From Calothrix sp. PCC 7507 (GTDB taxonomy: Bacteria > Cyanobacteriota > Cyanobacteriia > Cyanobacteriales > Nostocaceae), in assembly GCF_000316575.1 (NCBI RefSeq), contig NC_019682.1, forward strand, positions 5,454,001 to 5,518,000: DNA of 64,000 nt. Direction: 5' to 3'. How positions within the stretch are numbered: the stretch's first letter is position 1; each line of letters starts with the position of its first letter. The notes under the pieces are model-generated. The model made no database searches. It was not told the DNA's origin and saw nothing but the letters and a program-made list of their open reading frames with translations. This document shows, piece by piece, positions 19,645 to 23,451 of this stretch. Position numbers and translations under genes: made by a program.

Positions 19645-22600
19645 TTAGGTAGTGGCATGGATTGCTAGCCGTTTAGCGATCGCTTGGGAATAGCGATCGC
19701 TTACATCTTTGATGCTAACCTTGATTAACGTTTGGTTATTAGAGGTTAAAACCCCCAAACCCTGTTCATAATTAGCAACCGTGCCAATTTTTTGCCATTC
19801 TTTCCCTAGATTTTCTGTTAAGTAAGATTCCCAAATTTCTTGTTGTGCTGGTGCGACAGAAACCAAAATTCGTCCACCGCCTTCACCAAACAGCACTTCA
19901 TCAAGGCGCGGTGGCTGATTTTCTGGTATTTCTAATGTAATTTCCGCACCAAAGTTGCCAGCGATCGCACATTCTGCCAAAGCAACTGCTAAACCACCCT
20001 CAGCGCAATCATGGGCTGATCGTACCCAACCAGTGCGAATTCCCTCACGGCAAACTTTTTGTACGCGACGTTCCCAATCAAAATCTACCCGTGGGGGAAT
20101 GCCTGCCACAGTGCCGTGAATCGTGGCTAAATACTCAGATGCTCCCAAAGTAATGTTAGATCCAGGTAAGCCCAAAAGATAAATCACATCACCCACTGCT
20201 TGCCAAGCTTGACCACAAATTTTGTTTAAATCGGGAATCAATCCCACCATGCCCACAACAGGGGTAGGGTAGATTGGTTGCGGATTGCCTTGAGAATCGA
20301 GGGTTTCATTGTAAAGAGAGACATTCCCACCAGTCACAGGTGTTGCTAACTCTCGACAACCTTCAGCCAAACCACGACAAGCTTCTGCTAATTGCCAATA
20401 ACCAATCGGTTTTTCTGGACTACCAAAATTTAAATTATCTGTCACCGCCAGAGGTTCAGCACCCACACAACTAAGATTGCGTGCCGCCTCTGCCACGACA
20501 GCCTTCGCACCCTCATAGGGATCAAGGTAAACATAGCGAGGATTGCAATCAACAGTAGCCGCAACTGCCGATTTTAGATTTTGGATTTTGGATTTTGGAT
20601 TGGGGACTTGTTCTATTGGTCGTAAGCGCACTACCGCCGCATCTGCGCCCCCTGGGAGGATGACGGTGTTGTTTTGTACTTGATGGTCATATTGACGATA
20701 TACCCAATTTTTTGAGGCGATCGTGGGCGTGTCAAGCAACGTTAACAAAATATCATTCCAACTTTGCAGACTTCCTTGGATTTCAATACCAGCAGTTGTT
20801 GCCGGAGGTAAAGCATCAGATGACCACTCCCAAGCTTTGCGTGCATATTCTGGAGGTTCTGTCAATAACTCACGATGATACAGTGGCGTATTTTCTGCCA
20901 AAGCATCAGCGGGAATTTCTGCAGCTACTCCACCTTGGAAAAGAATTCGGACTATTGGGTCAGCAATCACCATACCCGCAACCACAGCTTGCAATCCCCA
21001 ACGATGGAAAATATCAATTAACTCCTGTTCTCGTCCCTTGTGGGCAACAAACAGCATTCTTTCTTGCGATTCCGACAGCAGATATTCATAGGGAACCATC
21101 CCCAATTCCCGCACGGGAATTTTATCTAAATCTAATTCAATTCCAACACCACCCTTAGCAGCCATCTCGGAAGTGGAACAAGTGATCCCCGCCGCCCCCA
21201 TATCTTGTGCAGCGACAACAGCACCTGTTTTAAATGCCTCTAAACAAGCTTCAATTAACGACTTTTCTAAAAATGGGTCGCCTACTTGCACAGCAGGACG
21301 GTTATCTATAGACTGATCACTCAATTCTGCACTTGCAAAACTCGCCCCTCCCATCCCATCGCGCCCGGTAGTAGAACCGACATACAGCACCGGGTTTCCT
21401 AAGCCTGATGCCCCAGATTTGACGATTTCTGAGGTTTCCATCAATCCCAATGCCATGACATTCACCAGGGGATTACCAGCATAAGCAGGATCAAAGTAAA
21501 CTTCGCCGCCAACTGTGGGAACTCCAACACAGTTGTGTGTGACAATGCCGGATGTAGTGACGAAAAGATGTGTGTTGTCTACTTCCACATCGTAAACATC
21601 ACATTCATCAACGGTATTGGTTTCTATACTCTTAATTTGGACAACTACTACTGCATCGGAAAAGTTACGGAAACGAGGGAAAGAATACTTTGTACCTTCA
21701 TAGCGTGCCAAAGCAGTAGCTAATTGTGCCGTTCTTTCTGTAGCAAAGACATTTGCTAAGGCGGTGAGTCCCGCAAAGTTGCTAACTTCTAGCTGCCATA
21801 ATGGTAGTCGCTGATGGTGACGACCTTCTATTTGTCCTGTAGATGGCGATCGCTGATAAATATATGGTATCGCCCCCTGATTTTGAATCAGCATCAAAGT
21901 TTGCTCAAATAGCTTGTGGCTTGTTGTCGCAAATGATATTTTGGCATGATTGCCATGCGTTTTTGTGGTTAGGGAACCATCACCTCGTAATAAACCTTTC
22001 AAGACTTCCCGTTGTAAGCTACTTGGCCATGTAAAAACAAATGCTGGACAAGCTTTATTGCTTGCTCTATTACCACACTGCCAAACATTTTTCAAGAGAT
22101 GCCCAAATAGCCATGAAGTAGCATAAACAGCGATCGTTGCAGTCCGTGTTTCCACACATGGGCGTAATCCCAAATGTTTTAAAGCACTCACAACGTCATT
22201 GACATATTCGCTTTCATGGTGGGCGAAGGTGAAGATAATTTTATAAGTATTACCATTTTGAGAAGTGCATCCTTCAGAAAGGTAATAGCCGAGTAAGCGG
22301 GCAAACTCTGCATCTGGCTGGATAACAGCCCGCATATAGTTAGCTTTGCCGCGACGAAACAGGCAGATTTCCTGACGGGATACTTTAAGTAAGGGTTCTA
22401 AGCTGAGAAAATGTGCTAAAGGCAGTTTCCCATATGTGAGATATTGATGACGCTTGCTGACAGAAGGTTCGAGTAACTGCAAAGCTGTGCGGATCAGTGC
22501 TGTTGCTTGCCAAGTCTCTGGAAGTTTTACAAATACATCCCTACCAGTCGCATCGTCAGGATTCAATGTGGCGATTAAATCCAGTGGAGGAATTGTTTCT

Positions 22601-23451
22601 GCACTGGCGATTTCTGGTAATGATGTCAGTATGGGGATTTCATCACCTACTTGTAAAGATTGGGCAGTACAGGTGTCCCAGCTACCTTTTGACCGCATCA
22701 AAATTGGATGATCTGGTGTAACGGTGAGGGTGCGTCCTAGGGCTGTGCGTATAGTTACTAAGGTTTGAGTGCGTCTTTTAAACACACGCCGCACACGCTG
22801 CCAACAACTAGTATGGGTGTCAGGATCTAAGGAAAGAGTTTCAGGGGCGATCGCATCATCTAATTCCAGAGTAGTCTGATCTGAACTCAACCGCGATTCC
22901 ACAAAGTTACCAATAGTGTCAAAATGCACACCAGCTTGATCTCTCCAGATAAATGTTTCATTACCTACCAGACAATTACCATAATGTGAAATCCCTGCAA
23001 CTACGCCTTGGAACAGCCGTTGAGTTTTAGCATCTTCTAGAGAACCGAAGCGCAGAGAATTTAATAAAGCAATGGGACGCGCACCCATTGTAAAAATATC
23101 TCTGAGAATACCGCCTACTCCTGTTGCTGCACCTTGGAATGGTTCCACTGCTGAGGGGTGGTTATGGGACTCTATCTTAAATGCTAGTTCCAGTCCATCG
23201 CCTAAGTCCACAACACCAGCATTTTCACCAGGGCCAACCAAAATGCGAGATCCCGTCGTGGGAAACTGTTTGAGTAAAGGGCGGGAATTTTTATAACAGC
23301 AATGCTCTGACCACATCACCCCAAACATACCCAGTTCAGCTTTGTTGGGATGTCGCCCTAGGCGGCGGACAATTTCTGCATATTCTTCTGGCTTGAGGCC
23401 TTCGGCGGCAATTTCTTGTGGAGAAAAGGGAGCAGGAGATGTGGCAGTCAT
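19645..23451 (-). CDS. purL: Phosphoribosylformylglycinamidine synthase PurL, intein-containing
   Basis: FGAM synthase large subunit of the small-PurL type, which works with PurQ and PurS. The 1268-residue precursor contains a 481-aa intein (C160-N640). Removing it joins AGISHYGN to [11 protein letters not shown] and leaves 787 aa, normal for cyanobacterial PurL. N-extein motifs include [15 protein letters not shown] and [21 protein letters not shown] (ATP/metal site); the C-extein carries [11 protein letters not shown] and [15 protein letters not shown]. The C-extein also holds a repeat-derived insert [12 protein letters not shown] near 20571-20607. Without splicing the ATP site would be broken, so splicing is presumably required for purine synthesis. 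It precedes purF. Confidence 0.95.
20571..20607. repeat. attttgg-type short tandem repeat inside purL
   Basis: About four copies of gattttg/gattttgg run in frame through the C-extein coding region, giving [12 protein letters not shown]. The same repeat class normally sits between genes in these genomes. Confidence 0.75.
21532..22974 (-). mobile_element. PurL intein with LAGLIDADG homing endonuclease
   Basis: 481-residue intein, residues 160-640 of the precursor. Block A is CLVGNETFI with Cys1. Block B is TVTPDHPIL (TxxH). Block F is [13 protein letters not shown] and block G is SGIVTHN, followed by Cys+1 of the C-extein, which is the standard class 1 set. Between them are two dodecapeptides, LLGYYLSEG (386-394) and LKGLLRGDG (484-492), each keeping its acidic residue (Glu393, Asp491), so a DOD-type homing endonuclease may still be active. 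The insertion point GN/CVGVPT is a conserved part of PurL, typical of intein sites. Confidence 0.95.

Follow-up and report, generated by a model that had tools for sequence, protein, structure and literature searches.

The purL gene of Calothrix sp. PCC 7507 very probably contains a self-splicing, endonuclease-bearing class-1 intein that spreads by homing, with splicing and DNA cutting predicted from conserved residues and a modelled fold. The gene is located in the window, by which we mean the whole analysed stretch of 64,000 nucleotides of contig NC_019682.1 (positions 5,454,001 to 5,518,000). Empty, intact-endonuclease, decayed, endonuclease-deleted and fossil forms of the element were all found at one PurL site. 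Since all these stages coexist at one cyanobacterial site, the life cycle of a selfish element becomes readable in a single gene, and some of the bearers are named strains.

In the proposed scheme, PurL would be made as a 138-kDa precursor in which the Hint domain moves the acyl group of Asn-1 to Cys1, to be taken over next by Cys+1. Cyclisation of Asn481 would free the intein, and an S-to-N shift would join the exteins into an 84-kDa PurL, as suggested by the conserved residues and the fold. This order of steps is the established chemistry of class-1 inteins. The LAGLIDADG domain of the excised intein is a predicted site-specific endonuclease that would cut empty purL around the GGTAAT/TGT junction, and repair from an occupied copy would insert the intein. 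It would spread among cyanobacteria and be lost from some lineages, while in others the endonuclease would decay or be deleted and splicing would be kept. Divergence patterns in relatives show that the intein moves.

The intein-bearing purL frame

The purL frame (19645..23451, minus strand), taken from the list of open reading frames, encodes a precursor of 1268 amino acids with the intein in frame, and exceeds the cut-offs of NF002290 and TIGR01736. The precursor matches only once in the genome, which consists of one contig of 7,023,215 bases, so a single purL was found, with one copy of the PurL intein. As the only purL copy is interrupted, PurL function should depend on splicing.

The intein, 481 amino acids long from Cys1 to Asn481 (21532..22974, minus strand), corresponds to purL codons 160-640 and is supported by motifs, Pfam, NCBIfam, AlphaFold and Foldseek. 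It is inserted between GISHYGN, the last residues of the 159-codon N-extein (22975..23451, minus strand), and CVGVPTVGG of the C-extein, which comprises 628 codons and the stop (19645..21531, minus strand). NCBIfam PurL models match both flanks of the insert. The extein without the intein has 787 amino acids, and the calculated masses are 138.1 kDa for the precursor, 53.9 kDa for the intein and 84.2 kDa for the extein. The earlier note on this DNA had reported a 481-residue extra segment in purL, and its coordinates proved exact; the masses it gave, about 84 kDa spliced and about 138 kDa for the precursor, agree with the calculation. Its statement that excision restores a conserved 16-residue PurL junction also holds, as GISHYGN then adjoins CVGVPTVGG in the same way as in empty alleles.

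The intein sequence begins with Cys, includes a 14-residue stretch and LLRGDGSL in its interior, and terminates with VTHN, after which Cys follows. Cys1 (22972..22974, on the minus strand as are all features below) is the first splicing nucleophile by established class-1 chemistry, and TPDH at intein residues 86-89 (22708..22719) represents splicing block B (TxxH). The two LAGLIDADG motifs are LGYYLSEG at residues 228-235 (22270..22293) with the acid Glu234, and LLRGDGSL at residues 328-335 (21970..21993) with the acid Asp332. The C-terminal splicing blocks form a 23-residue segment at positions 459-481 (21532..21600) that includes His469, His480 and Asn481. They are followed by Cys+1 of the C-extein (21529..21531), the second nucleophile and a native PurL residue. 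Across an alignment of 21 inteins, the window's and 20 homologues that share 45-73% identity with it, Cys1, Thr86, His89, His469, His480 and Asn481 are invariant. The class-1 residue set, Cys1, T86-H89, His480, Asn481 and Cys+1, is therefore complete, and the motifs listed in the earlier note (Cys1, TxxH, two dodecapeptides with their acids kept, and the HN/C end) were each found as described.

Searched with Pfam, the protein matches Intein_splicing (PF14890; E 1.8e-15) and LAGLIDADG_3 (E 1e-11), each above the curated threshold for the protein, and NCBIfam places intein_Nterm at intein residues 1-92 and intein_Cterm at 459-481, also over cut-off. Among the best 25 of 28 NCBIfam matches of the precursor, "exception" models for intein-bearing proteins concern GyrA, Tes and RtcB-related proteins, and none concerns PurL. 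The AlphaFold model of the intein, built with a 37-sequence input, has a pLDDT of 91.0 and a pTM of 0.91, with LAGLIDADG helices at 222-234 and 318-328; the Hint fold is indicated both by PF14890 and by resemblance of the model to intein structures. With splicing and endonuclease families over cut-off, both acids kept and the fold in agreement, the earlier description of a full-length LAGLIDADG intein is confirmed. Base composition was uninformative as to a foreign origin (GC 0.438 in the intein, 0.470 in the extein and 0.423 in the window; GC3 0.347 and 0.355 in intein and extein).

A six-frame scan of the genome with PF14890 gave 10 matches, two of which are halves of the PurL intein; the model caught it only as these pieces, both below cut-off (28.7 and 27.3 bits vs 35.8). 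Other inteins of this genome are found in a SNF2-type helicase and in DnaX, both named by eye, at G000:C1:5649038-5650303 and G000:C1:1529601-1529795. In the C-extein, an 11-residue piece of the PurL linker (20569-20601, minus strand) is encoded by tandem CAAAATC-like repeats, and near profile position 433 this linker is expanded in many relatives.

Distribution and forms of the element

Among 100 near genomes, 13 match the intein, the window's own included; six of them carry it in full length at high score, i.e. the window and five others, all in PurL and at the same site. In the order sample, 38 of 388 genomes match at E 1e-40 or better, again including the window's own. PurL models match in 373 of the same genomes. 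The intein-bearing genomes fall in 21 of 149 genera, and in 12 of these 21 the empty site is present as well, according to our reading of the order sample or of the same-genus genome G001 (genera g1, g28, g68, g71, g74, g102, g107, g108, g111, g117, g127 and g143). For this count, a site was considered empty if one uninterrupted PurL match occurred without an intein match, or if the site was read directly. A sporadic distribution at a fixed site is thus seen. In the phylum sample, eight of 386 genomes match at 1e-20; a single one, G618, lies outside the order, and its intein too is in PurL at the same site. The earlier remark that PurL is not a common intein host stands in so far as our open-access literature search returned no PurL intein, but in cyanobacteria, with 38 of 388 order genomes, such inteins are not rare.

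A scan of named genomes disclosed 69 loci, and in 41 of them the intein-bearing frame also matches PurL. Two of these (L114 and L115) use a second site, and the other 39 use the site of the window as far as readable: 37 have both junctions in a single frame, L102 has them in two, and L107, cut by a contig end, shows the downstream junction alone. The 39 include three archaeal loci. The two frames of L102 overlap, on a MAG contig with a coverage of 1.9, and a probable sequencing error was preferred to a natural split intein. A phage or plasmid origin was rejected: 50,697 phage records gave a single weak match (anaerobic ribonucleotide reductase of an Aeromonas phage, 23%), and 72,556 plasmid records gave no match. 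Of 33 loci on viral contigs, 32 have a listed frame, none matching PurL, and L174 gave no row.

Intein-less alleles in sister strains, which the earlier note had proposed to look for, do exist. The site was read directly in 36 genomes chosen for having no intein match, G001 among them, and the two PurL halves directly abut in all of them. The +1 residue is Cys in 34, Ala in one and Ser in one, so Cys at this position is not strictly kept in PurL. These values replace an initial count of 79/79, which was circular since it came from a pattern that demands Cys. L184 and L194 are the empty purL loci whose +1 residue is Ser or Ala. With Ala at this position the intein would be unable to splice, and such alleles may represent resistant hosts. 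By our count, 36 genomes of the order sample have PurL in two or more pieces and no intein match; a different intein as the cause was rejected for the 14 examined, which all have an empty intein site. In nine of them PurL breaks at profile positions ~427-459, where the linker is expanded, and in the remaining five the break is due to contig ends or overlapping frames. In L059/L075 (G149) and L063/L068 (G287), PurL is broken at the expanded linker into two frames, by a real split or a sequencing error.

In the 44 distinct full-length cyanobacterial inteins, both catalytic acids are kept in 34 and at least one is lost in 10. The 34 include L090, in which a deletion immediately follows motif 2. 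Seven loci from different hosts contain mini-inteins of 200, 208, 217 and 261 amino acids, with all splicing residues kept; two of the loci, L116 and L119, apparently repeat L053 and L054. These natural mini-inteins (200-261 amino acids) are possible splicing scaffolds. Furthermore, PurL of Spirirestis rafaelensis is empty, and ~1.6 kb upstream of it lies a fragment corresponding to intein residues 189-275 with 77% identity (L123, 4001-4261). This endonuclease fossil sits beside a short frame that by eye resembles Doc/Fic.

Movement, descent and the endonuclease core

Divergence of inteins and their host genes was compared as pairwise NG86 dS for the 44 inteins left after removal of duplicates (L034 and L037 were dropped as such before tree building). 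Pairs with less than 85% ungapped extein identity or extein dS over 1.2 were omitted, and the incomplete L102 and L107 were left out of trees and pair counts. When both endonucleases are intact and extein dS is below 0.9, the intein/extein dS ratio is 0.01-0.67 in 25 of 25 pairs, which come from ~6 clades and are not independent within a clade. At extein dS of 0.9-1.2, the ratio of intact pairs is below 1 in 7 of 14. In Chamaesiphon, where both acids are lost, the ratio is 1.25-2.74 in 17 of 17 pairs, all from this one genus and 11 of them near NG86 saturation (intein dS 1.27-2.14); the six closest pairs, with unsaturated intein dS of 0.49-0.81, have ratios of 1.25-1.44. Under vertical descent, a ratio above 1 may come from stronger codon constraint in the extein, and if such constraint raises vertical ratios, the low ratios stand out even more.

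The clearest case of movement is the pair G283/G334. Their inteins are 99.8% identical over 1446 bp and the 100 bp upstream are 100% identical, while the first 100 bp downstream are 88% identical; identity in the other 18 hundred-base steps of the compared gene part is 0.90-0.99. For the window's intein, five pairs have dS ratios of 1.11-1.65 and show no recent transfer partner; their extein dS values all exceed 1, a range in which recent movement would not be visible. In trees of 37 rows, the intein data reject the extein topology and vice versa (AU p 5e-7 and 4e-4). Nine splits supported at 95 or above are common to both trees, against a single supported conflict, so much of the inheritance is vertical or between close kin. 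As judged from sequence divergence, the low ratios of close intact pairs show recent movement between close kin, and the trees show an older shared descent of the intein and its host gene; by the same measure, the Chamaesiphon intein is vertically inherited. The homing-cycle model can be tested directly by pairing the state of the endonuclease with the divergence of intein and host.

The order sample includes nine genomes under the genus code of Chamaesiphon; eight carry the intein and the ninth is 82% complete with a partial PurL match. Both acids are absent in all seven full-length copies in which they were read. In four close species, dN/dS of the endonuclease core (residues 216-403) is 0.058 (bootstrap 0.035-0.085), compared with 0.082 in Hint-N and 0.44 (0.28-0.71) in the tail (404-440); in seven species, the core and tail values are 0.091 and 0.52. 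The core of four intact clades has 0.066-0.099, a constraint like that of the dead core, and the intact pair L086/L026 has 2.46, based on very few changes. Two of the four intact clades likewise have a relaxed tail, at 0.35 and 0.23 with broad intervals, so that relaxation of this segment does not set the dead clade apart. When the dead form is modelled with AlphaFold (pLDDT 85.3), the core is retained and confidence is low at 407-437. We tentatively consider, as a possibility short of even odds, that the dead core has been taken over for another task, either in precursor folding or splicing or in DNA binding at purL; the intein would then be a selfish element domesticated inside an enzyme of purine synthesis. 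The mildest explanation of the constraint would be that this lineage requires the core structurally, for folding or splicing; a putative DNA-binding role would be the bolder one.

Three other readings were weighed against a splicing and homing intein. It is extremely improbable that the insert is a lineage-specific structural or regulatory domain staying in the mature PurL: its in-frame position and the purifying selection on Hint and endonuclease regions in the tested clades would fit such a domain, but the splicing residues are invariant, the fold is that of Hint with LAGLIDADG, and endonuclease-less mini forms occur in four sizes in different hosts. Moreover, 350 of the 388 order genomes have no intein match at E 1e-40 and the 36 sites read are without any insert, which disposes of an ordinary PurL domain, the finding that the earlier note had named as its refutation. 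Less easily set aside, and still rather unlikely, is an intein that splices while its endonuclease is already inactive or without a target, so that it is now inherited vertically in Calothrix. The ratios above 1 in the window's five pairs and the loss of at least one acid in 10 of 44 distinct full-length inteins speak for it. On the other side, the catalytic acids and the fold of the window's copy are intact, and the empty site of G001 in the same genus (extein dS 0.655) indicates that targets exist nearby.

Conditional splicing, e.g. redox-dependent through Cys1 and Cys+1, by which the intein would regulate purine synthesis, has a small probability, below that of an inactive endonuclease and well above that of a retained domain. 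The host is an enzyme of central metabolism and the insertion lies directly before a PurL Cys kept in 34 of 36 relatives read, and conditional splicing of other inteins, reported in PMC8557812, provides a precedent. Absence of the intein from close relatives argues against such a role. The self-splicing intein with a homing endonuclease hence remains the preferred reading.

Relation to known inteins and to the homing cycle

PI-PkoII (PDB 2cw7) is the best PDB match by sequence (E 2.4e-12; profile 1.4e-33) and the best Foldseek PDB match (E 1.2e-26, TM 0.65 by query length), followed in Foldseek by TliVMA (7qsu and 7qss) and PI-PfuI (1dq3). It likewise has a Hint domain with an inserted two-motif LAGLIDADG endonuclease; it differs in its length of 537 amino acids, in only 18% identity over the fold alignment, and in its host, which we take to be the DNA polymerase of an archaeon.

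The closest non-PurL relatives found are inteins of nucleotide-sugar (UDP-glucose type) dehydrogenases, of which L117, L118, L125, L126, L128 and L146 match residues 1 to 481 with 26-33% identity. Like the PurL intein, they are inserted directly before a Cys, in this case of GGHC-I and presumably the catalytic one, but in another host gene, named by eye. These inteins, together with L120, come from Chloroflexota, Planctomycetota, Omnitrophota, Elusimicrobiota, a desulfobacterium and a viral contig. The tree of 38 inteins separates PurL inteins from the seven dehydrogenase inteins with 100/99 and groups the same-site archaeal and cyanobacterial PurL inteins at 94/82, which does not reach the tool's star; the dehydrogenase rows and L114 were flagged for long branches and unusual composition. 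UDP-glucose 6-dehydrogenase is already listed as an intein host in PMC4071816. A PurL intein was not found in the open-access literature search, and the element is of a known kind, in a host gene and at a site that are apparently new.

Inteins of Bathyarchaeota/Crenarchaeota MAGs (L111-L113) share the PurL site, with GI[AS]DYGN followed by C at the upstream junction and a THN end followed by CIGVPT, and differ in their archaeal hosts and 29-30% identity. Homologous inteins with 29-31% identity are also present in PurL of Methanomicrobia archaeon LH_S13 and LH_S14 (L114, L115), at the second site between GGIVRDVV and CMGAQPIAL, by eye ~40 residues upstream of the window's. The PurL intein thus places such an element in a purine-synthesis enzyme of bacteria and archaea.

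The empty, active-looking, decayed and deleted-endonuclease forms at one site resemble the homing cycle as reviewed in PMC1654191. In that review, the simple model expects decay after endonuclease function is lost, with a functionless endonuclease left to drift, but the Chamaesiphon core does not drift. The conserved dead core is a case unforeseen by the simple homing-cycle model.
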